Positions 32,972-48,449 of a stretch of DNA of 64,000 nucleotides are shown here, in pieces. The stretch lies in NCBI RefSeq assembly GCF_004297185.1, contig NZ_PGCL01000001.1:1-64000 (forward strand), written 5' to 3'. Source of the stretch: Methanofollis fontis (GTDB lineage: Archaea; Halobacteriota; Methanomicrobia; Methanomicrobiales; Methanofollaceae). How positions within the stretch are numbered: position 1 is the stretch's first letter; the number at the start of each line of letters is the position of its first letter. The translations under genes and the position numbers were made by a program. The notes below the pieces were generated by a model that was given only the letters and a program-made list of their open reading frames with translations, made no database searches and was not told the origin of the DNA.

Positions 32972-33922
32972 TCAGCGCATCCGACTGAGCACCGCCTCAC
33001 CCACCTGCACGGTCGAGGCGGCGCCGCCGAGATCGGGCGTCCGCACCCCCGCGGCACAGGCGGCATCCACCGCCGCATCCACCGCCGCCGCCTCGTCCGC
33101 ATGTCCGACATGGGCGAGGAGCATGGCGGCAGAGCGGATCGCCGCCACCGGATTCGCAATTCCCCGCCCGGCGATGTCAGGGGCGCTCCCGTGGACCGGT
33201 TCAAAAAAGGCATGGGAATCGCCGACGTTTGCCGAGGGGAGGAGGCCGAGTCCGCCGACCAGATAGGCGGCGGCGTCGGAGATGATGTCGCCGAAGATGT
33301 TCGTGGTCACCACCACATTATAGCGGGACGGGTGCATGAGGAGGTCGAGACAGAGGGCGTCGATATATTTCTCTTCCCAGCGCACACCGGCGGATTCTGC
33401 CTCCTCGATCGCACACCGGCGGAAGAGGACGTCGGACTTGATCACATTCGCCTTGGTGCCGATCGTCATCAGCCCGTTTTCTGCCAGGGCCGCGGCATAT
33501 CGGGCGATCCGTCGGCTTCCCCCATCGGTGACCACCCGCAGGGTGCAGGCGCTCCCGGGCAGCGCCCACTCGATCCCGGAGTAGAGCCCCTCGGTGTTCT
33601 CCCGCACGATGGTGACCGAGAATCCCGGTCCGCGGACCGGTCTCACGTTTGCATAGAGGTCGAGATCTTTTCTGATCTGCAGGAGCACGCTCCGGTAGTC
33701 GGGGTCAGGCGGGGTGGTCACCGCCCCGAAGAGGATGGCATCCGCCTCACGGAGGGCGTCCATCTCCCCGGATCCGATGGCGGCGCCACAGCGCTCCCAG
33801 CGGCCGAACCCCACCTCGACAGGGTAATAGTCCCAGTCAGGGTGGAGGTGGCGGAGCACGGACTCGGCGACCGGCACCACCTCCCGCCCGATGCCGTCAC
33901 CCGGAACGACGGCGATCTTCAT
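32972..33922 (-). CDS. aksF: Isocitrate/isopropylmalate dehydrogenase family, probably homoisocitrate dehydrogenase AksF
   Basis: 316 residues. It has VVPGDGIGREVVP, the metal-site region VVTTNIFGDIISD, RENTEGLYSGIEW and EPVHGSAPDIAGRG. It oxidises and decarboxylates (homo)n-isocitrate to the next longer 2-oxoacid with NAD(P), the third step of each elongation round leading to 2-oxosuberate for coenzyme B. Assignment to AksF over LeuB rests on the adjacent aksA/D/E genes. ATG 33922 follows GGAGGGAGC; it overlaps the unknown gene by 26 bases. Last gene of the leftward operon. Confidence 0.85.
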   Translation of the reverse strand: MKIAVVPGDGIGREVVPVAESVLRHLHPDWDYYPVEVGFGRWERCGAAIGSGEMDALREADAILFGAVTTPPDPDYRSVLLQIRKDLDLYANVRPVRGPGFSVTIVRENTEGLYSGIEWALPGSACTLRVVTDGGSRRIARYAAALAENGLMTIGTKANVIKSDVLFRRCAIEEAESAGVRWEEKYIDALCLDLLMHPSRYNVVVTTNIFGDIISDAAAYLVGGLGLLPSANVGDSHAFFEPVHGSAPDIAGRGIANPVAAIRSAAMLLAHVGHADEAAAVDAAVDAACAAGVRTPDLGGAASTVQVGEAVLSRMR

Positions 33923-34715
33923 GCTCCCTCCATGCCGACACCGCCGCCCGCAGCACCGTGTCGATCGTGTGCGGGGAGGCGCCCCAGTGGACCACTCCCC
34001 CCAGTTTCCCGTTCCAGACACCCACACCCTCCCGGTCGGCGCGGCAGCAGCGGGCGATGAAGGGTTCCTCCGCCACCTGCGTCAGGGGGCAGATCTCATC
34101 AACCACGATCGACCCCCCGTAGTTCTCAGAACAGAACTGGCGGGCGGTGAGGCATCCGGCCACCCGCTCAGTGCCATCAAGGGGATCGGAATCGAGGGTA
34201 CGCTCAAACCCACCCGCCCTGCACGGGTAGACTTCTGCCGCCGTATCCCTGATATCCCTGAGATGGTACTCGAAACGGACGCCAAGGTCGCCGAAGAGCC
34301 CGACCGATTCGAGCTCCTCCAGGATCGCCGCCAGGTGCGGACGGGGCGGTACGATGTCATAGACGTGCACGGTCAGGAGATCCCCGGGTTCGGGGTCGAT
34401 CACAAACGTCTTTGAGTCATCAGGGCTCCGGAAGATAGTGCACCGGTGCCCTCCCTCGCGTGCCAGCCGGATCAACAATGCACGGTCGCCGAAATTCACC
34501 GGATCTGGCCAGACAAGGGTCTCGTCCGGGGTGGCGAGCACCTCCTCGTCCAGGACCTTGCGCATCAGTCCGTTTCCGTCTGACAGGCGGACGGCACGGA
34601 TCTCCGACCCCTCCGGGGTCTCCCGGATCAGCCACCTGGAGAGGAAATAGATACGGTCACCGAGGGGATGCCCGGCGGCGATCCCCACATACTTGCACTC
34701 CTCAGGAAAGATCAT
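33897..34715 (-). CDS. Unknown protein in the coenzyme B operon
   Basis: 272 residues, soluble, no signal peptide or membrane segment, no family I can name. Notable features are a central acidic/proline region (VYDIVPPRPHLAAIL), ERVAGCLTARQFCSENYGGS, DEICPLTQVAEEPFIARCC with several Cys, and VVHWGASPHTIDTVLRAAVSAW near the end. It overlaps aksE by 4 bases and aksF by 26, so it is translated together with both. A role in coenzyme B synthesis or its regulation is inferred from position only. Confidence 0.7.
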   Translation of the reverse strand: MIFPEECKYVGIAAGHPLGDRIYFLSRWLIRETPEGSEIRAVRLSDGNGLMRKVLDEEVLATPDETLVWPDPVNFGDRALLIRLAREGGHRCTIFRSPDDSKTFVIDPEPGDLLTVHVYDIVPPRPHLAAILEELESVGLFGDLGVRFEYHLRDIRDTAAEVYPCRAGGFERTLDSDPLDGTERVAGCLTARQFCSENYGGSIVVDEICPLTQVAEEPFIARCCRADREGVGVWNGKLGGVVHWGASPHTIDTVLRAAVSAWREHEDRRRSG

Positions 34716-35185
34716 TCACGTCCTCCGCTCAGGTAGGCAACGAGGCCGCCGGCAGCAAGGATCGCCCGCATCCGGGCCGAGAGAGGGGCCACCGGGCGGC
34801 GTTCGCCACCGGCCTTGATCCAGCCCTCCTCCAGGTCAAATCTGACCATTTCATCCTCCTTGCATCCTGCCTCGCAGACCAGCACCGGCAGACCAATATT
34901 GACGGCATTGCGATAAAAGATTCTGGCAAAGGAGGGTGCGGCCACGGCGACGACGCCCGCCTCCTTCAGCGCCACCACCGCCTGCTCCCGCGACGACCCG
35001 CAACCGAAGTTCTTCCCTGCCATGATCACCGCACCCCGCAGGCGGGGCGCAAGGCCGGGGTCGAGGTCCTCGAATACATGCCCGGCCCAGACCGAACGGT
35101 CCTTTGTGCGGAGATAGCGTCCTGCGATGATGAGGTCGGTGTCGATATCGGTCCCCAGACAGACCGCATGCCCCTCCCCCCTCAC
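34712..35185 (-). CDS. aksE: Homoaconitase small subunit AksE
   Basis: 157 residues, the swivel domain of aconitase-family enzymes. GTDIDTDLIIAGRYLRT gives the substrate loop YLRT at 24-27; the Arg is the signature associated with homoaconitase, as opposed to isopropylmalate isomerase (usually YLVx). FGCGSSREQA is the conserved small-subunit motif. The GTG at 35185 has GGAGGGGTG just upstream and overlaps the large-subunit stop; longer upstream frames are out-of-family. Works with AksD to isomerise homocitrate and its longer homologues. Confidence 0.9.
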   Translation of the reverse strand: MRGEGHAVCLGTDIDTDLIIAGRYLRTKDRSVWAGHVFEDLDPGLAPRLRGAVIMAGKNFGCGSSREQAVVALKEAGVVAVAAPSFARIFYRNAVNIGLPVLVCEAGCKEDEMVRFDLEEGWIKAGGERRPVAPLSARMRAILAAGGLVAYLSGGRE

Positions 35186-36396
35186 TGGCACCCCTCCGGG
35201 GAGCAGATTGCACCGGCGAGCGCCGTCGCCGCCGCTGTCGAGGGGGAGGCGAGATAGATCTCCCCGCCGACGCCCATCCGGTTCCGGAAATTCCGGTTCG
35301 CCGTCGAGAGGCAGACCTCGCCCTCGCCGATCACCCCCATGTGCGCCCCCAGGCACGGACCGCACCCCGGCGTGGCAACGGCGCACCCGGCCTCCACCAG
35401 ATCGGAGAGCACGCCTGTCGCCGCCGCACGCAGGAGCACGGCGCGGGAGGCCGGGACGACGACGGTACGCACCGCCACCGTCTTTCCCCGGACGATCGCC
35501 GCAAACCGTTCGAGGTCCTGGTAGCGCCCGCCTGTGCAGGTGCCGAGGAATACCTGATCCACAGAAAGCCCCTCCTTTTCTGCAACCGGACAGACCGTGT
35601 CCACGCGGGGCGGCAGGGCAAGGAGCGGTTCCTGGGCAGAGAGGTCGATGCTGATCTCCGCGGAATACCTTTGCGTCCCCCCCGGCTGGAGGGGGGTGTC
35701 GAGGCCGAAGGAGGCAAGATATGCACGCGTCACCGCATCAGAACGGAACATGCCGGTCTTCGCCCCGGTCTCCACTGCCATATTGCAGAGGGTGAGGCGG
35801 TCGGCGATCGAGAGGGAGGCGGCACCCTCTCCGGCAAACTCCAGGGCGCGGTAGGTGGCGCCGTCCATGCCCAGGGCGCCCACGACGGCGAGGGCGACAT
35901 CCTTCGCCTCGGCACCGCCCGAGAGTTCACCCTCGAAGAGCACTCCCGTGGTCTCGGGCACCAGGAACCAGGTCTCCCCGGTGGCCCAGATGCCCGCCAT
36001 ATCGGTCGCACCGACCCCGGTCGCAAACGCTCCGAACGCTCCGAGCGTGCAGGTGTGAGAGTCGGCGCCCACGATCACCTCGCCGGGCAGGGCGCGCCCC
36101 TCGGCCATCACCTGGTGGCAGACGCCCGAACCCACGTCATGGAACTGCATGCCGGTCCGGCGTGCAAACGCCCGGAGCTCATGCTGCAGGTCGGCGGTGA
36201 CCGAGGTGTTCGCCGGCACGATATGATCGAATATAAGGTACTTCCGATCCGGGTCGGTGAACCTGCCGGTGCCGATCTCCTCCCATGCCGCACGGGCCAG
36301 CACTCCGGTGCCGTCGTGCACATAGGCGCGGTCGACAGGGCGGTCCACATAGGATCCGGCAGGAGCACCCAGGATCTCCTCGGAGAGGGTGTTCAC
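35182..36396 (-). CDS. aksD: Homoaconitase large subunit AksD
   Basis: 404 residues. This is an aconitase/isopropylmalate-isomerase large subunit with [4Fe-4S]-binding Cys in FLGTCTGGRYQDL and TPGCGPCLGAHMG, plus VGADSHTCTLGAFGAFATGVG and the terminal NRNFRNRMG. It dehydrates and rehydrates homocitrate, (homo)2- and (homo)3-citrate in coenzyme B chain elongation. GTG 36396 is preceded by GGGAGGGGGGGC; its upstream overlap with aksA is 4 bases. The neighbours (aksA, aksE, aksF) decide between the leucine and coenzyme B pathways. Confidence 0.9.
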   Translation of the reverse strand: MNTLSEEILGAPAGSYVDRPVDRAYVHDGTGVLARAAWEEIGTGRFTDPDRKYLIFDHIVPANTSVTADLQHELRAFARRTGMQFHDVGSGVCHQVMAEGRALPGEVIVGADSHTCTLGAFGAFATGVGATDMAGIWATGETWFLVPETTGVLFEGELSGGAEAKDVALAVVGALGMDGATYRALEFAGEGAASLSIADRLTLCNMAVETGAKTGMFRSDAVTRAYLASFGLDTPLQPGGTQRYSAEISIDLSAQEPLLALPPRVDTVCPVAEKEGLSVDQVFLGTCTGGRYQDLERFAAIVRGKTVAVRTVVVPASRAVLLRAAATGVLSDLVEAGCAVATPGCGPCLGAHMGVIGEGEVCLSTANRNFRNRMGVGGEIYLASPSTAAATALAGAICSPEGCQ

Positions 36397-37535
36397 GCCC
36401 CCCCTCCCGTCCGGTCGGCACAGATGGCCTTGCAGAGAATCTCCTGGAGCACCTCCGGGGTGACGGCGCATTTCGCCTCGCTCCGGGCCTTCACCTGGTG
36501 GAGCACCCAGGTGATCTCATCCTCCTCCAGGTCATAGCCGAGACTTGAGGCCACATGCCGCACGGCATGCCGCCCGGTGTGTTTTCCCAGGATAAAGGTG
36601 CGATCGCACCCGACAAGGGCGGGCCTGACATATTCATAGGCCTCGGGGTCCCGGAGGATCGCCGCGATATGGATCCCGCTCTCATGCGCAAATGCATGGT
36701 CCCCGACGATCGCCTTGTTCCGTGCGATCGACAGCCCGGAGGCCTGTGTCACCAGCTCAGAGAGGGCATGGAGCCCGGAGAGGTCGTAACGGTTGATCCC
36801 ACCCTTCAGGGCAAGCAGGACGAGCACCTCCTCGAGGGCGGCGTTTCCCGCACGCTCCCCGATCCCGTTCACCGTCGTATGGAGCTGGAAGGCGCCGGAC
36901 GCCGCCGCCGTCACCGTATTCGCGGTGGCGCACCCCATGTCGTCATGGCAGTGGATGCAGAGCGGGACGCCCACGGAGGGTGCATATTCCTGCACAACGG
37001 CCACCATCTCGATCGGCGTCATGCACCCGACGGTGTCGGCAAAGGTGACCAGGTCGGCGCCATGCGCAACTGCCTGCCGGTAGGACTCGAACAGAAACCC
37101 GGGATCAGAACGGGAGGCGTCCTCGGCGCCGAAACGCACCTGCACACCATGATCATGGGCATAGGCGACCATTTCCATCGTGCGGGCGAGCACCTCCTCC
37201 CTGGGACGGCCGTACTTCAGACTGATATGCAGGTCGGAGGTGGGCATGAACACCCCGATCATGTCCACACCACAGTCCAGGGCGGCGTCGATGTCCTCCT
37301 GTTTCGCCCTCGATAGGGCACAGATCCGGGCATCAAGCCCCATCTCACATATGGCCCTGACGGCTGCCTTTTCACTCGCCGATACCGCCGGGAATCCGGC
37401 CTCGATCACCTCGATGCCGGTGCCGTCGAGCATACCGGCGATTTCCATCTTCTCCTCGCAGGTGAACGTGACGCCGGGCGTCTGTTCACCGTCACGCAGT
37501 GTGACATCGCAGATCTCAACATTCCACCTGTTCAT
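36393..37535 (-). CDS. aksA: Homocitrate synthase AksA
   Basis: 380 residues, a DRE-TIM metallolyase. It has DVTLRDGEQTPGV (catalytic RD), the metal motif CIHCHDDMGCATANT, TTVNGIGERAGNA and HAFAHESGIHIAAILRDPEAYE. It condenses acetyl-CoA with 2-oxoglutarate and then with 2-oxoadipate and 2-oxopimelate, opening each round of 2-oxosuberate synthesis. ATG 37535 follows GGAGGTGA at 5 bases; a GTG nine bases earlier overlaps that SD. It overlaps the IorA-like gene by 20 bases. Confidence 0.92.
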   Translation of the reverse strand: MNRWNVEICDVTLRDGEQTPGVTFTCEEKMEIAGMLDGTGIEVIEAGFPAVSASEKAAVRAICEMGLDARICALSRAKQEDIDAALDCGVDMIGVFMPTSDLHISLKYGRPREEVLARTMEMVAYAHDHGVQVRFGAEDASRSDPGFLFESYRQAVAHGADLVTFADTVGCMTPIEMVAVVQEYAPSVGVPLCIHCHDDMGCATANTVTAAASGAFQLHTTVNGIGERAGNAALEEVLVLLALKGGINRYDLSGLHALSELVTQASGLSIARNKAIVGDHAFAHESGIHIAAILRDPEAYEYVRPALVGCDRTFILGKHTGRHAVRHVASSLGYDLEEDEITWVLHQVKARSEAKCAVTPEVLQEILCKAICADRTGGGA

Positions 37536-38664
37536 GACTCTCACCTCCCGGACAGTTTCCCCTGACGATCACCGTTTTCGGCCCATCTGAAGGCCGAATC
37601 AGCCGGTCCAGGGCGTTCATATCAGCGGCCTCGACAACCGAGGGCCGCGCCCACTCCAGGTAGCGGGAGATATCGGCCACCGCCGATCCCCCGACCATAC
37701 CCATCCGCCTGTTCTCGATGACGATGCACAGCAGGGGCACCCCTTTCTCGTGGACATCGATGAGGGCGTTGATCCCCGAGTGCAGGATGGCATAGTCGCC
37801 GATCAGAGCGACACCCGTCGCCCTCGCCCCCACTGCCACCGCCGATCCCAGCCCATAACTGGCGATGCCGACTGAACCGGGCGGGTTCAGGGCGAGGAGA
37901 GAGCATCCTGCATCCACCGCCGCCCGCATGCCCCGCCGTTCGAGCAGGGCAAAGAGGGGGCGAAACGGACAACCCCTGCAGAACGTCCGGAAATATCCCC
38001 GATCATGAAAGGTTTCCGGGCGGTCCTGTGGGGCATCGGCCGGCGGCATGGCGACCCGCACCCCCTCAGGCGGACGATGATCCGCATGTGCCGCCGCCGT
38101 CTGCAGGGCATGCGCCCACCGCCCCCGCATCGTCAGGGCGGGATCCGCAACCTCCCCCTGCCCGGTCGGCACCCCGACATCTTTCACCTCTCCGGCCTCA
38201 GCCTGGAGGATATCGGGCGTCACCCGCAGCAGGGCGACCCGGGAGAGCGCCGCCGAGAGGGCGAAGGCTTCGACAAGGGCGGACGGGAGATCTTCGGCGG
38301 ATTCGGCCTCCACCACCGGCACCATCGCAAGGGGGCCGAATGGGCGCGAGTCCTGGGCCGCCTGCGAGGCGCGGGCATGCGGGTCATCACCGACCACCAC
38401 CACCACCGGCGCCCTGAGCCCCTGCGCCGTTGCCTGGACCAGGGGATCAGCGAGGAGGTTCATCCCCACATTTTTGACGAGCACTGCGGCAGGTCGGGCT
38501 GCGAGGGAGGATCCGAGGGCGTACTCCAGCGCCACCTTCTCATTGGTGCAGATCTCGGCGCCGGCCAGCACTCCGCACCCGGTGACCGGATACCCGGGCA
38601 CGGTGAAGATGCGTCCGGGTGCCGCCCTTCGCAGGGCCTTCGCCAGCACCGCCTCGCCGTCCAT
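37516..38664 (-). CDS. IorA-like TPP-dependent enzyme without ferredoxin domain
   Basis: 382 residues. The N-terminal half resembles a pyrimidine-binding domain (FTVPGYPVTGCGVL, EKVALEYALGSSLAA, VKNVGMNLLADPL, VVVVGDDPHAR). The C-terminal half has FCRGCPFRPLFALLE, GIASYGLGSAV and the TPP/Mg site IGDYAILHSGINALIDV with downstream IVIENRRMGMVGG. This is the pattern of indolepyruvate:ferredoxin oxidoreductase alpha subunit (IorA), but the usual C-terminal 2x[4Fe-4S] domain is absent and no IorB gene is near. Within the aks operon it is a candidate 2-oxoacid decarboxylase (see findings). ATG 38664 has GGGAGGG at 7 bases. Confidence 0.8.
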   Translation of the reverse strand: MDGEAVLAKALRRAAPGRIFTVPGYPVTGCGVLAGAEICTNEKVALEYALGSSLAARPAAVLVKNVGMNLLADPLVQATAQGLRAPVVVVVGDDPHARASQAAQDSRPFGPLAMVPVVEAESAEDLPSALVEAFALSAALSRVALLRVTPDILQAEAGEVKDVGVPTGQGEVADPALTMRGRWAHALQTAAAHADHRPPEGVRVAMPPADAPQDRPETFHDRGYFRTFCRGCPFRPLFALLERRGMRAAVDAGCSLLALNPPGSVGIASYGLGSAVAVGARATGVALIGDYAILHSGINALIDVHEKGVPLLCIVIENRRMGMVGGSAVADISRYLEWARPSVVEAADMNALDRLIRPSDGPKTVIVRGNCPGGESHEQVEC

Positions 38665-38666
38665 CC

Positions 38667-39632
38667 TCATTCCCTCCCCGGCATCAGGTCGCATCCGGCA
38701 CAGGCAACGCACATCGTCTGCGCCTCCGCCGGATCGAGGCCGCCCTCCCGGATCTCCCGGGTGGCAATCTCGTTCAGCCGCATCAGCCGCCCGGCATCGG
38801 GACGGCGGAGATGGGCGCACCCGGCCGAGGGTGTGAGCGGCCGGAGGATCGGGATCACCCCGATCGAGCAGAGGCGATGCACCGCCGCTTCGATCTCATC
38901 GTCACTCTCCCCGAGGCCGACGATGATGTTGCTCTGGACATGGTTTTTCCCGAAGAGGCGGACCGATTCGACAAGCACCTCCCAGATCAGGTTCCAGTCG
39001 AGCCCCGGACACATCTCGGCAAAGATGCCGGGAGTGGCCGCCTCCAGGTTGAACTTCACCTCGTCGGCACCTGCTTCCCGGAGCAGGCGGGGGGTGTCCG
39101 CCGTCGGATAGATCGAGACGCCGATCGGGAGGCCGAAGCGGACGAGCGCCCGCACCACCTCGACCGTCCGCCGTTCCTCCTCCTCCACGCTCCCGGCAAC
39201 CCCGCTCGTGATCGAGATGGCGTCGATGCGTTCGAGCACCGAGCGCACCATCGCCACTACCTCCGCCGTCGTCCTGCTCCCTCCCGAACACGCAGGCACC
39301 GCACAGTAACGGCAGGAGAAGATGCACCCCGGAGTGAGGGTGATGAAGGCCTGGCGGGGGCAGTGGAGGGCCGGCGCCTCCAGCACACCCCGGACCATCT
39401 CGCCCCTGAACGGGATTGCGGCATTCCCCTTCCCCTCATGGACCAGGGTGAGCGGGGCATCCGGATCGACGGCAAGGCGCACTCGCCGACCGCCGACCGA
39501 GAAAAACACCGATCCCGCCCCCCCCGCACCGGGCCCGGCGCTGGAAGAGGCAATATACTCCTTCGCCGGGGCCCCGACGATCCGCACCCGCCCTTCGGCC
39601 AGAAGGGCCGCCTTCACTGCGATCCAGTCCAT
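38667..39632 (-). CDS. Radical SAM protein, unknown reaction
   Basis: 321 residues. The radical SAM cluster is Cys103-x3-Cys107-x2-Cys110 (PGCIFSCRYCAVPAC), with ITSGVAGS as a likely SAM-binding GGE-like strand, then IGVSIYPTADTPRLL and IIVGLGESDDE. The C-terminus has CVACAGC, possible ligands of a second cluster. A 90-residue N-terminal region precedes the barrel. It lies between the marker-11-like genes and the IorA-like gene in a tight operon. I do not recognise the subfamily; it is shorter than the Arg-methylating marker protein 10. Confidence 0.8.
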   Translation of the reverse strand: MDWIAVKAALLAEGRVRIVGAPAKEYIASSSAGPGAGGAGSVFFSVGGRRVRLAVDPDAPLTLVHEGKGNAAIPFRGEMVRGVLEAPALHCPRQAFITLTPGCIFSCRYCAVPACSGGSRTTAEVVAMVRSVLERIDAISITSGVAGSVEEEERRTVEVVRALVRFGLPIGVSIYPTADTPRLLREAGADEVKFNLEAATPGIFAEMCPGLDWNLIWEVLVESVRLFGKNHVQSNIIVGLGESDDEIEAAVHRLCSIGVIPILRPLTPSAGCAHLRRPDAGRLMRLNEIATREIREGGLDPAEAQTMCVACAGCDLMPGRE

Positions 39633-40528
39633 AGCGCCAGCGCCTCCTCATAATCGGTATAGAAGGGGATCGCCGCCACCGCACCGATCAGCCCGCGGCC
39701 GTCCATCACCACCTGCACCCCCTCCAGCACGGCGTCGAGATCGGCAGAGGTCACCTCGCCCCGCTTCACCGCCTCGCCGTATCCCCTGAGAGGCGATGGA
39801 TCGAAGCCGGTGAACACCGCCATACCGGTCTCCTCAGAGAGGGTGTGGCGGCGAAGAAGAGCCGCAAAGCGTTGGACAAGCCCGTCCGGATCGGTGGATG
39901 CAAACTCCACCGCACAGGCGACGCAGTTCTTTGTCCTGAATGCGACCGGGTAGAGCTGGACGATGGTGTGGGAGAGGTAGACCGAGGCATCGTCGGCCAC
40001 GGCGCGGGCGATGTTGTGCACCAGCGTCCATGTCGCACCGGCGTCCGGGGTATCGGTGTCGTCCACCCCGATGATCACCCGCTCCCGCCGCGGCAGACGG
40101 AGCGTGGAGCCCGCCAGTTTTCCACCGCCTGACTCGTCACATTCCGCCCCGATGACACCTCCGGCCAGTGCCCGGCACGCCGCCGCCCCGACACCGCCGC
40201 CACCCATCCCGAGATAGGTGACCGAGACCTCGTCACCCTCTACCGCCGCCCCGGCAATACCGGCCGGAAACCGCGACCCCTCGAGGGGGAGATCGACCGT
40301 CCCGGCCCGAAGCACGTATCTGGTCGTCGGCCCGACAGTGCGGGCCGAGAGAACCACTGGACTCTGCGCATAGTGGTGCCGCACCCAGTGGGCCCCGCCC
40401 AGGCAGTCGTAGAACTCCACCACCTCGATCCGGTCACCGCTCCTCTCGGCGATCCCGACGATGAGTGGGTACCTGACCACATAGGGGTCAGAGAGAGCCC
40501 CGGAACCCTCCATCTTCATACCGTCCAT
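39614..40528 (-). CDS. Methanogenesis marker protein 11-like paralogue
   Basis: 304 residues. A central nucleotide-binding-type motif, IIGVDDTDTPDAGATW (Asp156-Asp159), is followed by IVQLYPVAFRTKNCVACAVEF, SEETGMAVFTGFDPSP and GRGLIGAVAAIPF. The same elements in the same order occur in the upstream gene, so the two are paralogues. The DDTD motif also recalls TiaS-type tRNA agmatidine synthases, hinting at ATP-dependent chemistry. ATG 40528 follows GGGGGTG; the end overlaps the radical SAM gene by 19 bases. Function unknown. Confidence 0.7.
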   Translation of the reverse strand: MDGMKMEGSGALSDPYVVRYPLIVGIAERSGDRIEVVEFYDCLGGAHWVRHHYAQSPVVLSARTVGPTTRYVLRAGTVDLPLEGSRFPAGIAGAAVEGDEVSVTYLGMGGGGVGAAACRALAGGVIGAECDESGGGKLAGSTLRLPRRERVIIGVDDTDTPDAGATWTLVHNIARAVADDASVYLSHTIVQLYPVAFRTKNCVACAVEFASTDPDGLVQRFAALLRRHTLSEETGMAVFTGFDPSPLRGYGEAVKRGEVTSADLDAVLEGVQVVMDGRGLIGAVAAIPFYTDYEEALALWTGSQ

Positions 40529-40549
40529 CCCGCACCCCCTGATCTCCCC

Positions 40550-41497
40550 TCACTCTCCGTAGAGCCCTGCCGCCTCGACACCGCGGTTGCCCCAGAGCAC
40601 GGCGCCCAGGGCACCGATCCGCCCCTTGCTCCGTGCCGAGTCGATGAAGGTGATGCCAAGACGCTCTGCCTCGGCCTCGACCTCCTCGCGGGTGAGGATA
40701 TCGGTCTTGATCCGGCGAGAGTAATCTGATACCGGAATTTCGATCCCCCGATAATAGGCGATCCCGGTGTCGCCGGAGACGGCGTTGCTCTCCACATACT
40801 CCTTCACGAACGCCAGGAGGGGCTCCACCGAACCCGAACGCACGGCGAAGTTCAGCACCGATCCGACACAGTTCGTCGTCTTCTTTGGTACGGCCGGGTT
40901 GAGCTGCACCAGCCGCATATTAAGGTACTCAACTCCGGGGATCATGCACGCCTCGGCGCACTTCAGGGCGAGCACCCAGGTGGCACCCTCCTGTTTGGTG
41001 TCTGTGTCGTCGATGCCGATCGTCACCTTCTCGTATTTCGGGGAAACGATCCGCACCCGGCAGACACGGGCACCGCCGATCTGCAGGTCCTCCTCGGTCG
41101 GGTACTCGGCCCGGATCACGCCGGGCGCCTGCGGCAGGCATGCGGCCACACCCACACCGGCACCGGCGATCCCCGCCCAGGTGGTCACGACTTCCTCCCC
41201 CTGCACCTCGACACCTTCGAGGGCCTGACCGCCGATCTCCTTTCCGGCAGCGCCGAAATGAGCCTCATATCTGCCGAGGCGGGCCTTCATCGTCATCGAT
41301 GACCCCTGCGCCTCGGCAGAGGACAGCGCCCCGCCGGCACGCCGTCGGTTCATCATGTCCCACTCGATGGTGCCGCGGTGGCGGCAGGACTCCAGGATCT
41401 CCGCCGTTCCGGCCTGTTCATCCACCATGACAATGAATTTCTGTGCAAACAGGGGTCCGAAGCGGGCCCTGACCTCGTCGGGTGTGAGTGTGATCAT
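40550..41497 (-). CDS. Methanogenesis marker protein 11
   Basis: 315 residues. TIGIDDTDTKQEGATW (DDTD at 163-166), MRLVQLNPAVPKKTTNCVGS, SGDTGIAYYRGIEIP and SKGRIGALGAVLWGNRGVEA are the recognisable elements of the marker-11 family, found as far as I recall only in methanogens. Biochemical role is unknown; the DDTD motif suggests an ATP- or nucleotide-dependent step. ATG 41497 follows GGTGTATAATC. It is the first gene of the leftward operon, with a strong inverted repeat just upstream. Confidence 0.7.
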   Translation of the reverse strand: MITLTPDEVRARFGPLFAQKFIVMVDEQAGTAEILESCRHRGTIEWDMMNRRRAGGALSSAEAQGSSMTMKARLGRYEAHFGAAGKEIGGQALEGVEVQGEEVVTTWAGIAGAGVGVAACLPQAPGVIRAEYPTEEDLQIGGARVCRVRIVSPKYEKVTIGIDDTDTKQEGATWVLALKCAEACMIPGVEYLNMRLVQLNPAVPKKTTNCVGSVLNFAVRSGSVEPLLAFVKEYVESNAVSGDTGIAYYRGIEIPVSDYSRRIKTDILTREEVEAEAERLGITFIDSARSKGRIGALGAVLWGNRGVEAAGLYGE

Positions 41498-41511: not shown

Positions 41512-41529
41512 AATTTCGTTGACGAAATT
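41512..41529. promoter_or_regulatory. Perfect inverted repeat, candidate operator of the marker-11/aks operon
   Basis: AATTTCG-TTGA-CGAAATT: 7-bp perfect arms with a 4-base spacer, 14 bases upstream of the marker-11 start codon. Read leftward, a TATA-like CTTTATCC lies at about 41545-41553, so the palindrome would sit near the transcription start, a classic repressor position in archaea. Confidence 0.5.
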
Positions 41530-41727: not shown

Positions 41728-42612
41728 TTAGAAGAGATCCTTCAGGTCGATCTTGAAGGGTCCGAGGCTGCCGCCGAAGTTGCCGGCGCTGATGAAGACA
41801 ACACCCGGCACCATGCATGCCGCTCTGATGCCCTCGGCCATCGCCTCCTTCACGGCCTCCTCGTCCAGACCGTCGATGACGATCTCGTAGAGCGCCTTCA
41901 CACCTTCGGGGACCATGGAGCCCTCGACCTTCTCACGCAGGGTCGGGCAGTATTTCTCGTTCGTGCTTGCGGGCATGAACTTGTATTTGTTGCTGCCGAC
42001 CTTTGAGCCCGAGGCGACGATGCCGCCCGGGAAGGGAGTGACAACACCGCAGACGGCGCTGATCGCATCGACTGCTGCCTGGGCGCCGGTGAGGGCCGCC
42101 ATCTGGTTCTCGCCCATCACAAAGAAGTTGCCGCCGGCAACGCCCTTGACGATGCCGAAGTCCTCCTCACCGACATATTCGCCGTTCATGATCGGGATCG
42201 CCCAGCACTGCCGGCCGCCGACTTCCTTCTTGTACTCAAAGCCGTCGCCGAAGAAGTGGAGCTTCACCGGGATACGCTCCTCGGCCTCGGGCAGACCGTC
42301 GAATACGGCGGTGGTCGGGGCGGTGAGCACACACTCGGCAAGCCGCTCAACGACCTGCTCCTTCAGCTTCTTCTTGCCGGCACAGATGAGAATCGCATAT
42401 CCGGGCCTTCCGTCCGGGGTCTCGTCTGCAGAGACGAATCCCTCGATGCCTGCCTCACAGGGGCATCCGATGGCGGAGGTTGCGAAACCGGTCGCCTCGG
42501 TTGCCGCCTTGTAGGCCCACTCCTCGGTGACGGCGGTGATGATTACCCGGCACACCCACGTCGGAAATGCCTCAGCATACGTGTCGTCGATGGTCACACC
42601 ATTATACTCCAT
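41728..42612 (-). CDS. ftr: Formylmethanofuran--tetrahydromethanopterin N-formyltransferase
   Basis: 294 residues, normal Ftr length. It begins MEYNGVTIDDTYAEAFPTW and continues with typical Ftr segments (ATGFATSAIGCPCEAG, VVTPFPGGIVASGSKVGSNKY, ISAGNFGGSLGPFKI). It transfers the formyl group from formylmethanofuran to tetrahydromethanopterin, step 2 of CO2 reduction, and acts as a soluble homotetramer. GAGGTG precedes ATG 42612. Divergent from the fwd-hdr operon; a TATA-like gcatatagaaat (read leftward) lies at about 42694-42706. Confidence 0.98.
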   Translation of the reverse strand: MEYNGVTIDDTYAEAFPTWVCRVIITAVTEEWAYKAATEATGFATSAIGCPCEAGIEGFVSADETPDGRPGYAILICAGKKKLKEQVVERLAECVLTAPTTAVFDGLPEAEERIPVKLHFFGDGFEYKKEVGGRQCWAIPIMNGEYVGEEDFGIVKGVAGGNFFVMGENQMAALTGAQAAVDAISAVCGVVTPFPGGIVASGSKVGSNKYKFMPASTNEKYCPTLREKVEGSMVPEGVKALYEIVIDGLDEEAVKEAMAEGIRAACMVPGVVFISAGNFGGSLGPFKIDLKDLF

Positions 42613-43029
42613 ATATACACCTCATGTGCTGAGGGGCGGGCCCTGCCCGACACCCCGTACACTGAATAGAGAATGCAACAGGGGAACAGATGAAGATTTC
42701 TATATGCAGAACAGACCATTCGGACCGGTCCCGGGCGGGCACTGGACCCGACCGGCAACACCCGATTACCCTGACAGATGAGCATGGGCACCGGGCAGGC
42801 AGCCATCCGGCGGGGAACTGGAGAATATTTCCGCTGAAAACCCCAACGCACAATTTTTCAGTCGTCAGAGCCCCGATGCATTTAATCTTCGCCGTGAATC
42901 AACACATTTCAATTGATCGACTTCCAAAAACAGGTTTTTTCCCTGCCCTCTCATTCAGAAGGTTTATGTATATTATTTTCCAACTCTTTCTTAATCGATT
43001 TTATATCGAGATAGCTGGTGCGTGAAACC
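42613..43029. promoter_or_regulatory. Divergent promoter region between ftr and fwd-hdr operon
   Basis: 417 bases with no gene. For the rightward operon, an archaeal promoter-like AAGGTTTATGTATATTA (BRE plus TATA) lies at 42959-42974, about 57 bases before the fwdG ATG. Between them is the inverted repeat TCGAT-TTTAT-ATCGA (42995-43009), positioned near the expected transcription start. The leftward TATA for ftr is near 42694-42706. The middle part, 42710-42950, shows nothing I can name. Confidence 0.5.
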
Positions 43030-43302
43030 ATGGCATTTGCAGTGCATGTAAACATGGAACGGTGTACCGGTTGTAACAATTGTGTGGTCGCGTGCCCAGT
43101 GGATGCACTGGAGCTCAACACCGTGGATCCTGTCACAACCGACAAGATCTACAAGGTGATGAACGGCAAGGCAATCGTCCTTGACGTTGATCACGAGCTC
43201 TGCGCCGGTTGTGGCGTATGTGTCGAGGCGTGTCCGTACAATGTGATACGGCTGGTCTTTGGACCGATTCAGTCCGGGCCGGGTGCCCAGACACAAGGAT
43301 AA
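43030..43302 (+). CDS. fwdG: Formylmethanofuran dehydrogenase subunit G (dicluster ferredoxin)
   Basis: 90 residues with two [4Fe-4S] motifs, CTGCNNCVVACP and CAGCGVCVEACP, the second followed by a Gln/Gly-rich tail. It carries electrons into the formylmethanofuran dehydrogenase core. ATG 43030 is preceded by GGTGCGTGA; an in-frame GTG at 43018 is less likely. First gene of a ten-gene operon, 18 bases before the polyferredoxin gene. FwdG is chosen over a free ferredoxin because of that context. Confidence 0.85.
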   Translation: MAFAVHVNMERCTGCNNCVVACPVDALELNTVDPVTTDKIYKVMNGKAIVLDVDHELCAGCGVCVEACPYNVIRLVFGPIQSGPGAQTQG

Positions 43303-43320
43303 TAGGAGTGAGGGTAATTC

Positions 43321-44487
43321 ATGCCGATATTTCCAAAATTCTCCAAGAAGAGAGATGGTGTAAACATCATCAACGAGCAGAGACTTCTGCAGCAGGCAAA
43401 CCACCTGATTCTTGATACCCAGCGGTGCACAGGCTGCGGTATCTGTTCGGAGTCCTGCCCCGAGGATGCAATTGCGATCAGTATGGTCGGAGCGACCAAG
43501 AGGAAGAATGCAGTCGACTACGCTACCCCGGTGAACATTGACGAAGTCAAGTGTTCCTACTGTGGCGTCTGCGTCATCATGTGCCCCTTCAACGCCCTGA
43601 CCCTGAAGATCGACGGCGAAGAACGACTCCCCATCGTTGAGAAGGAGGGCTTCCCGCAGTACGACATGGTCACGAAAGTTGACGAAGAGAAGTGCGTCAG
43701 GTGCACCGTCTGTGAAGACGTCTGCCCCCGCGATGCCATCGACCGCGACGTCCCCGAGTTCGAGGGAGCGAGCGATGATGGCCGCGACCGCCAGAGCGCC
43801 CTGACATCGAAGACCACCTTCACGGTCGACACCGAGAAGTGTACGGTCTGTGGTGTCTGCGGAGCACTCTGCCCGGCGATCACCGTCAAGCGCAAACCCT
43901 TCACCGCCGAGACTGGCGACGTCGAGGGCGACGTCCTCTGGGAGGAGAGCCTCTGCGACGGTTGTACGGTCTGTGTCGAAGCCTGCCCCGAGGAGGCAAT
44001 CACGGTCACCCGCGAGGTCGAATCAAAGGTGCTCCCCGGCAAGGTCAACATCATCGAGGATGAGTGCTGCACCTGCCGCTGGTGTGCAATCAACTGTCCG
44101 ACCGAGGCGATCACCGTCGAGAAGATCTTCGAGGGCGAGATCGAGTTCCACGCTGAGAAGTGCCCCGGCGGATGCTCGACCTGCGCCGAGATCTGCCCGG
44201 CCAATGCGATCTATCTCCCGTCCCCGTCCCCTGCAGCCCAGATGAAGGGGGAGAAGGAGGCAAACATCGCCGTCAACAAGGATCTCTGCATCCTCTGCGG
44301 CGCCTGTGTGAACGCCTGCCCGGGTGAGGACATCATCGTCCTGAAGCGGACCGGCATCAGGGTGAAGGGCAAGGAGACCGACCTGTACAACAGGATCAAG
44401 GACAAACTCCTGACGCCGAGGACCTCGAAGGTCAAGGAAGGCGTAGCCCCCGGCTCAGTGGAACTGAAGGCCCTGGAGAAGGCGTGA
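43321..44487 (+). CDS. fwdF: Formylmethanofuran dehydrogenase subunit F (polyferredoxin)
   Basis: 388 residues with eight CxxCxxCxxxC motifs (CTGCGICSESC, CSYCGVCVIMC, CVRCTVCEDVC, CTVCGVCGALC, CDGCTVCVEAC, CCTCRWCAINC, CPGGCSTCAEIC variant, CILCGACVNAC), so up to eight [4Fe-4S] clusters. In the Fwd complex this wire links catalytic units and, here, probably joins to the Hdr complex encoded directly downstream. The C-terminal 60 residues are cluster-free. The seventh motif has an extra Gly (CPGGC), a small deviation. Confidence 0.95.
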   Translation: MPIFPKFSKKRDGVNIINEQRLLQQANHLILDTQRCTGCGICSESCPEDAIAISMVGATKRKNAVDYATPVNIDEVKCSYCGVCVIMCPFNALTLKIDGEERLPIVEKEGFPQYDMVTKVDEEKCVRCTVCEDVCPRDAIDRDVPEFEGASDDGRDRQSALTSKTTFTVDTEKCTVCGVCGALCPAITVKRKPFTAETGDVEGDVLWEESLCDGCTVCVEACPEEAITVTREVESKVLPGKVNIIEDECCTCRWCAINCPTEAITVEKIFEGEIEFHAEKCPGGCSTCAEICPANAIYLPSPSPAAQMKGEKEANIAVNKDLCILCGACVNACPGEDIIVLKRTGIRVKGKETDLYNRIKDKLLTPRTSKVKEGVAPGSVELKALEKA

Positions 44488-44495
44488 GGTGCACC

Positions 44496-45071
44496 ATGGC
44501 AAAAGGATATAACGACCCTGCAATGGAAGAGAAGTTCCAGGACAGGTACTTCCATTCTGAAGACAGCAACCCCGAATTTACCAAGAAGGTCGAGGAGATC
44601 TCCCGCACCATTGCACACATGTGCTACCAGTGCGGTACCTGCACAGGTTCCTGCCCCTCGGCACCCCGTTCGAGCTACCGTATCCGGCGGTTCGTCCGCC
44701 GTGCCGTGATGGGTCTTGAGAACGAATCACTCACCGACCCGGACCTCTGGCTCTGCACCACCTGCTACAGCTGCACCGACCGCTGTCCGCGTGACATCGC
44801 CCCGACCGACATCATCATGGCGATGCGCAACCTGGCCTTCCAGAGGGACATCATCCCGAGGAACTTCCTCAAGACGATCCAGCTCATCTACACCACCGGT
44901 CACGGTGTGCCCAACAACGACGTGAACCGGGCAGCTCGTGTGAAGCTCGGTCTTGAGGCCGAACCGGAGACGACCCACAAGTATCCCGAATACCTGCCGG
45001 GCATCCAGAAGATCATGGACCACTACAAGATGAAAGAGAATGCAGACAGAATCCTCTCGGAGGGTGAGTGA
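44496..45071 (+). CDS. hdrC: CoB--CoM heterodisulfide reductase subunit C
   Basis: 191 residues, soluble. Two [4Fe-4S] motifs, CYQCGTCTGSCP (from C43) and CTTCYSCTDRCP, move electrons from HdrA to HdrB. RSSYRIRRFVRRAVMG between them and the helical C-terminus are typical of HdrC. ATG 44496 has GAGGTG at 4 bases; the in-frame GTG at 44484 is a read-back into fwdF. It overlaps hdrB's possible GTG start by 4 bases. Confidence 0.97.
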   Translation: MAKGYNDPAMEEKFQDRYFHSEDSNPEFTKKVEEISRTIAHMCYQCGTCTGSCPSAPRSSYRIRRFVRRAVMGLENESLTDPDLWLCTTCYSCTDRCPRDIAPTDIIMAMRNLAFQRDIIPRNFLKTIQLIYTTGHGVPNNDVNRAARVKLGLEAEPETTHKYPEYLPGIQKIMDHYKMKENADRILSEGE

Positions 45072-45073
45072 GA

Positions 45074-45976
45074 ATGCACAACGGCATGCACGAGTATGCA
45101 TTCTTCCTGGGATGCATCGCACCGAACCGCTACCCGGGCTGTGAGGCCGCCGCCATCAAGACGAGCAGGGCACTCGGCATCGAACTCCTTCCCCTGAAGG
45201 GTGCGAGCTGCTGCCCGGCACCGGGCGCATTTGGCGCCGCCGACCTCTATGTCTGGTATGCGATGGCCGCACGCAACATCGTCCTCGCCGAGGAGATGGG
45301 CAAGGACATCACCCTGATCTGCAACGGCTGCTACAAGTCGATCTACGAGGTCAACGAGCGCCTGAAGGAGCACGACGACCTTCGCGACGGCGTCAACGAG
45401 GTTCTCGCCGAGATCGACATGGAGTTCAAGGGGAGCATCGATGTCTACCACCTGGCCGAACTCTACTACGACCCCAAGATCTGTGGTGTCGAGAAGATCC
45501 GCGAGTCGGTTGTCCGTCCGCTCGAAGGCACGAAGATCGCCGTCCACTATGGATGCCACCTTCTCAAGCCGATCAAGGAGCGCCGGTTCACCGATGCGGA
45601 GAACCCGATGTGGATCGAGGAGCTCGTCGAGGCGCTCGGCGCCGAGACCGTCCAGTACCGCAACAAGATGCAGTGCTGCGGCGCAGGCGGCGGTGTCCGC
45701 GGCTTTGATATCGCCCACTCGCTGGACATCACCAACGAGAAGCTGATTAACGTCACCGAAGCAGGCGCGGACGCCATCACCGAAGTCTGTCCGTTCTGCC
45801 AGCTCCAGTACGACCGCGGTCAGATCGAGATCAAGGATAAGTTCGGTATCGAATGGGGCATTCCGGTGCTTCACTACAACGAACTGCTGGGCCTTGCCCA
45901 GGGGATGAGCCCCCAGGAGCTTGCGCTTGACCTCCACGGCATCGACTGCAAGCCGTTCCTGGACAAGATCCTGTAA
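45074..45976 (+). CDS. hdrB: CoB--CoM heterodisulfide reductase subunit B
   Basis: 300 residues. Two CCG-type Cys-rich domains: GASCCPAPGAFG with CNGCYKS, and MQCCGAGGGVRG with CPFCQLQYD. They hold the two non-cubane [4Fe-4S] clusters that cleave the CoM-S-S-CoB disulfide. MHNGMHEYAFFLGCIAPNRYPG is a classic HdrB start. ATG 45074 after GGAGGGTGAG is preferred over GTG 45068. Followed by hdrA after 13 bases. Confidence 0.97.
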   Translation: MHNGMHEYAFFLGCIAPNRYPGCEAAAIKTSRALGIELLPLKGASCCPAPGAFGAADLYVWYAMAARNIVLAEEMGKDITLICNGCYKSIYEVNERLKEHDDLRDGVNEVLAEIDMEFKGSIDVYHLAELYYDPKICGVEKIRESVVRPLEGTKIAVHYGCHLLKPIKERRFTDAENPMWIEELVEALGAETVQYRNKMQCCGAGGGVRGFDIAHSLDITNEKLINVTEAGADAITEVCPFCQLQYDRGQIEIKDKFGIEWGIPVLHYNELLGLAQGMSPQELALDLHGIDCKPFLDKIL

Positions 45977-45989
45977 GGGAGGAATATCA

Positions 45990-48005
45990 ATGGCAGAAGA
46001 GAAGAAACAACCCAGAATTGGTGTGTTTGTGTGCCACTGCGGTACCAACATCGCAGGCTCTGTTGACATCGAGGCGGTGAAGGACTACGCGATGAGCCTC
46101 CCGAACGTCATCGTCGCAGACGACTACCAGTATATGTGTTCAACGCCGGGTCAGAGCAAGATCATCGATGCGATCCATGAGGCCGACCTCACCGGTGTCG
46201 TCGTTGCAGCATGCACGCCCCGTCTCCACGAGCCGACCTTCCGGACGGCCACAAAAGAGGGCGGACTCAATCCGTTCCGCTTTGAGATGGCGAACATCCG
46301 TGACCAGAACTCGTGGGTGCACATGCATGACCGCGAGGGCGCCACCGAGAAGGCGAAGGACCAGGTCCGCATCGCCGTCGCGAAGGCGTCCCTGCTCGAG
46401 GACCTTTACCCGAAGAGCGTGCCCGTCGAGCATGCAGCCATGGTCGTCGGCGCCGGTGTCGGCGGTATCCAGGCCGCACTCGACCTGGCAAACGCCGGGA
46501 TCAAGACCTACCTGATCGAGAAGTCGCCGACCGTCGGCGGACGCATGTCCCAGCTCGACAAGACCTTCCCGACGCTCGACTGTTCGCAGTGTATCCTCAC
46601 CCCGAAGATGGTGGACGTCGGACGTCACCCGAACATCGAGCTCTACACTTACACCGAGGTCGAGGAGGTCAACGGCTACATCGGCAACTTCGACATCACC
46701 CTCCGCAAGAAGGCCCGCGGCGTCATGAGCCCGACCGAAGCGGCGGCAAAGGGAATCGAGGGCGGCGGCTGCAACGGTTGTGGCGACTGTGACGCCGTCT
46801 GTCCGGTCATCAAGCCGAACCCGTTCGAGTTCGGCATGAAGCCCAGAAAGGCGATCTACATCTACCACCCGCAGGTCGTCCCCCTGGTCTACACCATCGA
46901 CTTCGACTCCTGTGTGAAGTGCGGGCTGTGTGTCGAGGCATGCGGCGAGAAGAAGGCCATCGACCTGGAAATGGAGGACTCCTTCGAGACCGTCAAGGTC
47001 GGCACCGTTGTCCTGGCCACCGGCTACGACATCTTCCCGATCGAGAAGAAGCGCGAATGGGGCTACAAGCAGTTCGACAACGTCATCACCTCGCTTGAGT
47101 TCGAGCGCCTGATCTGTGCGTCCGGTCCGACCGGCGGTCACCTGATCCGTCCGTCCGACGGCGTGACCCCGAAGAAGGTCGCATTCGTCCTCTGTGCGGG
47201 CTCCCGTGACAACACCGGCGTCGGCAAGCCCTACTGCAGCCGCTTCTGCTGCATGTACTCGCTCAAGCACGCCCACCAGATCATGGAGAAGATCCCTGGA
47301 TGCACGCCCTACATCTTCTACATGGACATCCGGTCCTTCGGCAAGATGTACGAGGAGTTCTACTACCGCATCCAGGACGAGGGTGCGAAGTTCATCCGCG
47401 GCCGTGTAGCAAACGTCCTCGAAGATGCAAAGACCAAGAACCTTCACGTCTATGCCGAGGACACCCTGCTTGCACGCCCCATTGACCTCGAGGTCGACAT
47501 GGTCGTTCTCGCCGCCGCCATCCAGCCCAACGATGATGAGGCCACCGTCAGGAAACTCTTCGGTGTCTCCAAGTCGATGGACGGCTGGATGCTTGAGGCT
47601 CACCCGAAGCTGAACCCCTGCGGCACCACGACCGCCGGTATCTTCCTGGCCGGCGTCTGCCAGGGCCCCAAGGACATCCCCGACACGGTCGCCCAGGCCG
47701 AGGGTGCAGCATCTGCGGCATCCATCCCGATCCACATGGGCAAGGTGGAGCTCGAGCCCTACTTCGCACAGTGCATCGAGGAGAAGTGTGCGGGATGCGG
47801 AATGTGCATCAGCCAGTGCCCCTACTCCGCTCTCGACCTCGTCGAGAAGGACGGGCGCAAGGTCATGCAGGTCACCGAGGCGAAGTGCAAGGGCTGCGGC
47901 ACCTGCGGCGGTTTCTGCCCCGGCGGTGCGATTTACATGCAGCACTTCACGACCCCACAGATTGTAGCGCAGATTGACGCATTCCTCCTCGGAGGTGAGG
48001 AGTAA
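45990..48005 (+). CDS. hdrA: CoB--CoM heterodisulfide reductase subunit A
   Basis: 671 residues. The N-terminal domain has VFVCHCGTNIAGSVD, the FAD Rossmann core has VVGAGVGGIQAALDLANAG, followed by EKSPTVGGRMSQLDKTFPTLDC. Inserted [4Fe-4S] motifs are CNGCGDCDAVCP and CVKCGLCVEAC. The C-terminal ferredoxin domain has CAGCGMCISQCP and CKGCGTCGGFCP. Its FAD bifurcates electrons between heterodisulfide (via HdrC/B) and ferredoxin. All Cys are normal; no selenocysteine position was seen. ATG 45990 follows GGGAGGAATATCA. Confidence 0.98.
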   Translation: MAEEKKQPRIGVFVCHCGTNIAGSVDIEAVKDYAMSLPNVIVADDYQYMCSTPGQSKIIDAIHEADLTGVVVAACTPRLHEPTFRTATKEGGLNPFRFEMANIRDQNSWVHMHDREGATEKAKDQVRIAVAKASLLEDLYPKSVPVEHAAMVVGAGVGGIQAALDLANAGIKTYLIEKSPTVGGRMSQLDKTFPTLDCSQCILTPKMVDVGRHPNIELYTYTEVEEVNGYIGNFDITLRKKARGVMSPTEAAAKGIEGGGCNGCGDCDAVCPVIKPNPFEFGMKPRKAIYIYHPQVVPLVYTIDFDSCVKCGLCVEACGEKKAIDLEMEDSFETVKVGTVVLATGYDIFPIEKKREWGYKQFDNVITSLEFERLICASGPTGGHLIRPSDGVTPKKVAFVLCAGSRDNTGVGKPYCSRFCCMYSLKHAHQIMEKIPGCTPYIFYMDIRSFGKMYEEFYYRIQDEGAKFIRGRVANVLEDAKTKNLHVYAEDTLLARPIDLEVDMVVLAAAIQPNDDEATVRKLFGVSKSMDGWMLEAHPKLNPCGTTTAGIFLAGVCQGPKDIPDTVAQAEGAASAASIPIHMGKVELEPYFAQCIEEKCAGCGMCISQCPYSALDLVEKDGRKVMQVTEAKCKGCGTCGGFCPGGAIYMQHFTTPQIVAQIDAFLLGGEE

Positions 48006-48431
48006 ATGGCAGAACAGGAATGGCAACCGAAGATCATCGCCATCATCTGCAACTGGTGTTCGTACGCCGGTGCAGACCTTGCGGGTTCAGCCCGTACCCA
48101 GTACCCGCCCGACGTCCGTGCCATCCGTGTGATGTGCACCGGCCGTGTTGACCCGCTCTTCGTCATGAAGGCATTTGCCGACGGAGCAGACGGCGTGCTC
48201 ATCTCGGGCTGCCACTTCGGCGACTGCCACTACCTTGCAGGGAACTTCAAGTGCGCCAAGAGGATGTTCCTCATGAAGAGTGTCCTCAAGGACCTCGGCA
48301 TCGAGGACACCCGTCTGCGCATGACGTTTGTTTCCGCATCCGAGGGTGCAAAGTGGGCAAAGGTCATGGAGGACGTTGTCGACACCATCAAAGAACTTGG
48401 TCCGAGCCCCCTCAACGAGCTGAAGGCGTAA
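48006..48431 (+). CDS. mvhD: MvhD-type [2Fe-2S] electron-transfer subunit
   Basis: 141 residues. Four or more conserved Cys in ICNWCSYAGADLAG, VMCTGRVDP and SGCHFGDCHYLAGN bind the [2Fe-2S] cluster that brings electrons to HdrA. In class I methanogens it links Mvh hydrogenase to Hdr. Here no mvhA or mvhG is next to it, so the donor is probably a formate dehydrogenase or F420-linked module encoded elsewhere. It begins directly after the hdrA stop and is followed by fwdD. Confidence 0.95.
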   Translation: MAEQEWQPKIIAIICNWCSYAGADLAGSARTQYPPDVRAIRVMCTGRVDPLFVMKAFADGADGVLISGCHFGDCHYLAGNFKCAKRMFLMKSVLKDLGIEDTRLRMTFVSASEGAKWAKVMEDVVDTIKELGPSPLNELKA

Positions 48432-48449
48432 GCGACGGAGGATGTTACG

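Follow-up and report, generated by a model that had tools for sequence, protein, structure and literature searches.

We analyzed a 64,000-nucleotide window of the archaeon Methanofollis fontis (contig NZ_PGCL01000001.1, positions 1 to 64,000), which contains a run of nine minus-strand genes, from 41497 to 32972, combining two genes of the methanogenesis marker protein 11 (Mmp11) type with aks chain-elongation genes. In this order, the run consists of m11-B (40550-41497, 315 aa), m11-A (39614-40528, 304 aa), a gene for a radical SAM protein (rSAM; 38667-39632, 321 aa), a gene for an IorA-like thiamine pyrophosphate (TPP) enzyme (37516-38670, 384 aa), aksA of the homocitrate synthase type in a short form (36393-37535), aksD and aksE of the homoaconitase large and small subunit types (35182-36396 and 34712-35185), a gene for a DUF7714 protein with Cys-rich conserved motifs (33897-34715, 272 aa), and aksF of the homoisocitrate dehydrogenase type (32972-33922). 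The genes are tightly packed: m11-B and m11-A are separated by 21 bp, m11-A overlaps the rSAM gene by 19 bp, the rSAM and TPP genes overlap through an ATGA (TPP start at 38670), and the TPP gene overlaps aksA by about 20 bp. Overlaps of 4 bp follow at aksA/aksD, aksD/aksE, and aksE/DUF7714, and one of 26 bp at DUF7714/aksF. The initial annotation had described two DDTD-bearing marker-11 paralogues followed by a radical SAM gene, an observation confirmed here for all three open reading frames (ORFs), and had placed them in one operon with the IorA-like and aks genes. The near-touching or overlapping arrangement bears out this operon, from which the DUF7714 gene between aksE and aksF had been missed.

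Upstream of the operon, 230 bp away on the same strand, lies ftr (41728-42612), and downstream a gap of about 530 bp precedes the next same-strand ORF. A perfect 18-bp palindrome, AATTTCGTTGACGAAATT, is located directly upstream of m11-B (41512-41529, no strand assigned). Its 14-bp core is found at the same position in the window and in all three fetched congeneric loci (L071, L086, L089), where the nearby sequence differs, and in no other fetched locus apart from overlapping copies of the window's own stretch. Judged from its sequence and position, the palindrome is a candidate operator that may have a regulatory role. Divergently from ftr and the operon, the plus strand at 43018-50167 carries polyferredoxin, HdrABC-like, and formylmethanofuran dehydrogenase-like ORFs, as read from their translations.

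The m11-A product is methanogenesis marker protein 11 proper, with 316.7 bits on TIGR03280 (curated cut-off 255.8), and m11-B, with 195.5 bits, falls under this cut-off and is thus a paralogue outside the equivalog. Pfam TiaS_TCKD (PF22641, cut-off 27) matches both m11-B and m11-A, with 61.8 and 43.9 bits. Neither protein belongs to the TiaS family itself (NF040849, cut-off 600 bits), on which m11-B scores 34.3 bits and m11-A is not listed. The structure of m11-A was predicted from 41 sequences with a predicted local distance difference test (pLDDT) value of 89.6, and residues 145-300 of this model, in the C-terminal half, match the TiaS-tRNA-ATP complex 3amt with a Z-score of 20.2 and a root-mean-square deviation of 2.0 over 152 residues. 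A Foldseek search with the model returned only TiaS chains at E <0.001; the structural matches listed span residues 144-292, and we claim no fold for the N-terminal half. Alignment reveals that the GxDDTD and GATW motifs are retained in both m11-A and m11-B, the GATW threonine being aligned to a TiaS threonine which we take to be Thr18. TiaS is reportedly a dual protein and RNA kinase. Because the kinase fold of TiaS and its motif residues are kept, ATP use by Mmp11 is a well-based expectation, and the model and motif together indicate that Mmp11, with the TiaS kinase domain as its framework, is probably an ATP-dependent phosphotransferase.

The IorA-like protein matches Pfam TPP_enzyme_C over the cut-off and TPP_enzyme_N just under it, shows no Pfam hit for a ferredoxin domain, and, with 112.2 bits on IOR_alpha/IorA (TIGR03336) against a cut-off of 650.9, is not a member of that family. 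The aks genes were assigned from profile matches, complemented for aksA by its short frame and for aksD by a tree of isopropylmalate isomerase (IPMI) large subunits. Three full-length LEU1_arch paralogues are encoded in the genome, two in long frames (495 and 578 aa) and the AksA-type one of the operon in a short, 391-aa frame. The two IPMI large subunits of the genome fall in different clades, that of the operon apart from the LeuC clade. With the only short LEU1_arch paralogue of the genome and a large subunit outside the LeuC clade, the operon supports the aks label. Since this subunit scores 393 bits on the homoaconitase family HacA_Meth (NF040615), under its cut-off of 550, and owes its role to context and tree, the name aksD is a functional guess. 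The DUF7714 protein is a clear member of PF24830 (287 bits, gathering cut-off 25) and scores 56.1 bits on the XcbA family (NF052538), under the cut-off of 150; its structure model, built from 2 sequences, had a pLDDT of 35.5 and was not used.

We then examined this neighborhood in a phylum sample of 147 genomes, in which Mmp11 loci were fetched from 55 of the 69 other genomes scoring over the cut-off, using bit thresholds (phmmer and HMM) and distances that we set ourselves. From inferred lineage names, families f1-f6 are Methanomicrobiales-type, f8 Methanosarcinaceae-like, f9 Archaeoglobi-type, f10 ANME-1-like, f12 Methanoliparia-like, f14 Methanocellales-like, and f21 Methanotrichaceae-like. 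Among the 26 other Methanomicrobiales-type loci, m11-A is accompanied by aks genes within 6 kb in 25, by the rSAM gene within 1 kb in 25, by the TPP gene within 2 kb in 24, by DUF7714 within 8 kb in 25, and by m11-B within 1 kb in 15. Genes of the aks type also lie near m11-A in three of four f14 loci, and a TPP gene stands beside m11-A in all 15 loci of f8 and f21. DUF7714 is present in 60 of the 147 genomes, all 60 of which carry Mmp11, and its position in the phylum-sample loci looked at is next to aksE and aksF or between the two. One f7 locus (L282) displays a separate cluster of TPP, aksA, aksD, aksE, aksF, and DUF7714 genes.

Outside the phylum sample, a profile scan of genome contigs gave 540 confirmed relatives, the best 80 of which were taken as named loci (L144 and L166 being placed in a lineage by gene neighbors or match). 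In Methanomethylicia, 9 of 11 loci have aks genes no more than 6 kb from Mmp11, the remaining two being on contigs shorter than 4 kb. The usual order is aksA, Mmp4, aksD, aksE, TPP, Mmp11, and then a gene for a GMC-like FAD protein; in one locus, Mmp4 precedes aksA and aksF is added. Both Methanofastidiosa loci have the order Mmp11-aksA-TPP. The TPP protein next to aks and Mmp11 is of the acetolactate synthase type in Methanofastidiosa and also in Methanomethylicia, where it is not IorA-like. Linkage to aks genes is therefore conserved in more than one lineage: Methanomicrobiales-type genomes, f14, Methanomethylicia, and Methanofastidiosa. The neighborhood is not unique to this genome and recurs with different gene content, in agreement with the link to coenzyme B synthesis initially drawn from this operon. 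In Methanobacteriales, aksDEF-like genes are found near Mmp11 in 26 of 39 loci. A lumazine synthase gene (ribH) sits between the leuCDB-like genes and mmp11 in this order (L180:8577-8993 and other loci). The GMC-like FAD protein, which has a Cys-rich motif (L129:9947-11134), follows Mmp11 in all 11 Methanomethylicia loci and is a possible alternative to rSAM and DUF7714 there.

The distribution of Mmp11 closely follows that of Mmp4/MtxX (TIGR03270), which a passage in PMC3087415 places in all methanogens with its function unknown. Mmp11 scores over its cut-off in 70 of the 147 genomes, Mmp4 is found in 72, and both in 69; when weaker full-length Mmp11-like proteins are included, the counts are 74, 72, and 72. 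An Mmp11-like protein in genome G069 has a broken motif (DDTG), and that genome lacks Mmp4. Outside the phylum sample, where 36 Mmp11 genomes were reached through 37 of the 80 named loci (without L145), an Mmp4 match is present in 35, over the cut-off in 28. Because Fisher p-values for co-occurrence ignore relatedness, concordance within family f9 is a safer basis: Mmp11, Mmp4, and rSAM occur there in an identical set of 7 of 24 genomes, only 3 of which have McrA. In M. fontis, Mmp4 is located elsewhere in the genome (G000:C2); it lies beside m11-B in all three f14 loci fetched and inside the aks operons of Methanomethylicia. One Mmp4 member weakly resembles phosphate butyryltransferase models (24.7 bits), and on an attractive reading Mmp4 may be the acyl-phosphate-handling partner of the kinase in amide bond formation.

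The marker-11 family had also been described as methanogen-specific, which does not hold, as its members are also present in Archaeoglobi-type genomes without McrA and in two metagenome-assembled genomes of Actinomycetota. In the Geoglobus-type loci L055 (9396-14363) and L115 (8968-13904), m11-A and rSAM are followed by the coenzyme M genes for cysteate synthase and comDE. Genome G124, the source of L055, has no McrA match, and this arrangement suggests coenzyme M-type synthesis without methyl-coenzyme M reductase (MCR). The m11A-rSAM pair was further observed on Actinomycetota-labeled contigs with bacterial-looking neighbors (L123:8944-11042 and L127:8716-11045), and both genomes have an Mmp4 match of 155 and 162 bits, below the cut-off.

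The rSAM protein matches PF04055 and has, besides the CxxxCxxC motif, a C-terminal CxxCxxC that is invariant in the alignment. By profile, the solved structures closest to it are those of lipoyl synthase (5exi) and biotin synthase (8vdw), and the protein scores under the cut-offs of both the LipS2 lipoyl synthase family (NF053743; 57 bits, cut-off 270) and MSMEG_0568 (TIGR04043; 77.5 bits, cut-off 303.7), the latter being passed by a relative in f18 with 393.7 bits. The rSAM gene adjoins a cluster of COG1900-type sulfurtransferase proteins in two f10 loci, one of three f12 loci, and one f23 locus (L204, L205, L206, L210); the one cluster member tested scores 165 bits on TIGR03287, below the cut-off of 363.95. 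The neighbor of the rSAM gene in both f7 loci comes from a cluster in which the member tested is LarE-type. With a threshold of 200 bits, rSAM is present in 95 of the 147 genomes, among them every one of the 70 Mmp11 genomes and 87 of the 90 McrA genomes. Universality of rSAM was considered and is near-true for the McrA-positive genomes of the phylum sample; it fails outside the phylum. The rSAM tree has two deep clades, so the function may differ across its range, and where rSAM is absent another enzyme must do its job. The suggested role in thiol introduction draws on the LipA/BioB-like relatives and, in some lineages, on a neighboring COG1900 homologue for aldehyde thiolation, and no comparable score was obtained in Methanobacteriota-type or Methanomethylicia genomes that carry Mmp11; judged from sequence, such a role is only weakly supported.

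A connection to threonine comes from a third Mmp11-type protein of this genome (C3:40328-41152; L265:6092-7213, approximately C3 40092-41213), which has an N-terminal winged-helix-like segment as read from the sequence. This helix-turn-helix (HTH)-fused Mmp11 is encoded by the last gene of an operon with an ACT protein and homoserine dehydrogenase. Homoserine dehydrogenase adjoins HTH-Mmp11 in 11 of the 14 fetched loci, namely in all 11 of the Methanomicrobiales type and none of the three from f14, and the set of three genes was found in two f18 loci. In an f16 locus, m11-A itself stands in one run with ACT, homoserine dehydrogenase, rSAM, and Mmp4. The HTH-fused protein is likely a regulator of threonine synthesis, and from gene position we infer a threonine connection of Mmp11 more generally. 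In coenzyme B, the amino acid is threonine, which also bears the phosphate; a threonine-binding kinase domain would therefore fit both gene contexts. The earlier proposal of thiol chemistry for Mmp11 is not sustained, the evidence favoring ATP-dependent phosphoryl transfer and threonine instead.

Electrons for the methane-releasing step come from coenzyme B. A passage in PMC12068725 describes its pathway as still unknown and possibly needing MMP16 or L-ASST, and the intermediates given in a passage of PMC3087415 run up to 2-oxosuberate. Among openly licensed papers, we found none that assigns an enzyme to the steps beyond 2-oxosuberate or a function to Mmp11. Taken together, the locus appears, on balance, to be a coenzyme B biosynthesis operon that unites the known aks chain-elongation genes with candidates for the unassigned later steps. 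Membership in the coenzyme B pathway is well supported, and the exact steps are our proposal. The TPP enzyme is likely to decarboxylate 2-oxosuberate to 7-oxoheptanoate. The strongest argument for decarboxylation of a 2-oxo acid as the common step is that another TPP subfamily can occupy this position next to aks and Mmp11. More tentatively, though quite plausibly, Mmp11 would act on the threonine half, where it would phosphorylate the hydroxyl group of threonine or else activate the acyl chain that is to be coupled to this amino acid; Mmp4/MtxX would be its functional partner. With less confidence, rSAM and DUF7714 could be components that this pathway has only in some lineages, perhaps for thiol formation. 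A bolder version, which we regard as somewhat unlikely, would make Mmp11 and Mmp4 the missing kinase/acyl-transfer pair by which threonine is joined to coenzyme B and phosphorylated there, a tRNA-modification kinase fold acting on a small molecule. HTH-Mmp11 would then be a BirA-like sensor tying threonine supply to demand, and the pair would also work in organisms without MCR (McrA-less Archaeoglobi, Actinomycetota), where a coenzyme B-type compound would be made.

Several distributions weigh against a coenzyme B operon. No aks gene was found near Mmp11 in the 11 f8 and 4 f21 loci, in the 5 Methanococcales loci, or in the 17 Archaeoglobi-type loci (12 named and 5 of f9). The Methanobacteriales linkage was rejected as aks evidence, since the IPMI large-subunit tree puts the tested copies in the LeuC clade and these neighbors are thus leu-type, one such copy nevertheless reaching 575 bits on HacA_Meth (cut-off 550). 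The short AksA is absent from the McrA-positive Archaeoglobi-type genomes G058 and G119, which have Mmp11. McrA itself matches in 90 of the 147 genomes (a weak hit in G111, E 2.2e-4, having been dropped before counting). Mmp11 is over the cut-off in 64 of these and missing from 26, among them ANME-1-like and Methanoliparia-like genomes, and six genomes, including McrA-less Archaeoglobi, have Mmp11 without McrA. A strict McrA-Mmp11 link is ruled out by this profile. Outside the phylum, rSAM exceeds 200 bits in only 6 of the 36 Mmp11 genomes (Korarchaeota, Hydrothermarchaeota, two of the Mnemosynella/BMS3Abin16 type, and two Actinomycetota).

These exceptions leave room for other explanations. 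Mmp11 and rSAM could serve the modification or maturation of MCR, their proximity to aks being incidental. The presence of rSAM in nearly all McrA-positive genomes fits this idea. So does the proximity of m11-A to YcaO/TfuA, the genes for McrA thioamidation, which lie at most 4 kb away in the Korarchaeota locus, both f7 loci, 4 of the 12 named Archaeoglobi loci, and 2 of the 5 f9 loci. We nonetheless find it improbable: the six McrA-less genomes keep Mmp11, Mmp4, and rSAM, two of their loci adjoining coenzyme M genes, Mmp11 is absent from the 26 McrA-positive genomes, and the homoserine dehydrogenase and aks/TPP linkages would stay unexplained. The Geoglobus-type arrangements L055 and L115, together with the retention of Mmp11 in McrA-less and AksA-less genomes, would instead point to coenzyme M, or to a step common to both thiol cofactors. 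However, our queries detected no coenzyme M genes near Mmp11 in the other lineages scanned, aks and TPP linkage recurs in four groups, and coenzyme M has neither threonine nor phosphate, so that the kinase fold and the homoserine link would lack a reason; this makes such a role quite improbable.

Shared regulation, or the packing of genes in a single order only, could also account for the neighborhood with no common pathway, and the restriction of the full nine-gene order to Methanomicrobiales-type genomes speaks for this. It is very improbable given that Methanomethylicia and Methanofastidiosa have independent arrangements in which the TPP enzyme is of another subfamily, and given the concordance of Mmp11 with Mmp4 in f9. 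Least probable of all appears an RNA modification enzyme like TiaS: the two proteins have the TCKD fold and motif in common, yet the TiaS match covers the kinase half only, the neighbors are metabolic, and a separate TiaS-like frame exists in the same genome. A coenzyme B operon remains the favored interpretation: evidence for the pathway link now extends well past a single genome, and the individual reactions are hypotheses. The operon supplies named candidate genes for the steps after 2-oxosuberate, explains two methanogenesis marker families, Mmp11 and Mmp4, together, and suggests that a tRNA-modification kinase fold was reused for a cofactor. Mmp11 in McrA-less genomes would widen the expected range of coenzyme B-type chemistry.

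Compared with the known aks pathway (AksA, AksD/E, AksF), the operon contains four genes of the set and five further genes without an assigned pathway role. The operon TPP enzyme has TPP-binding domains in common with IorA (indolepyruvate ferredoxin oxidoreductase alpha) and with ComDE (sulfopyruvate decarboxylase), which decarboxylates an acidic 2-oxo acid to yield an aldehyde, but it differs from the latter in having no NCBIfam ComDE hit. Lipoyl synthase, LipS2, biotin synthase, and MSMEG_0568-type radical SAM proteins are the best profile relatives of the window rSAM, yet it lies far below the NCBIfam cut-offs, and its invariant C-terminal CxxCxxC is distinct. Mmp4/MtxX stands out because it co-occurs almost perfectly with Mmp11-type genes and is often adjacent to them. 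The C-terminal half of Mmp11 shares with the PF22641 kinase domain of TiaS (tRNA(Ile2) 2-agmatinylcytidine synthetase) the fold, the DDTD motif, the presumed Thr18 equivalent, and a GRGxIGA segment. Unlike in TiaS, this domain is C-terminal and follows an unrelated N-terminal half, the rest of TiaS being unmatched, and the TiaS-like frame of 433 aa is encoded separately in the genome, while Mmp11 keeps metabolic gene neighbors.

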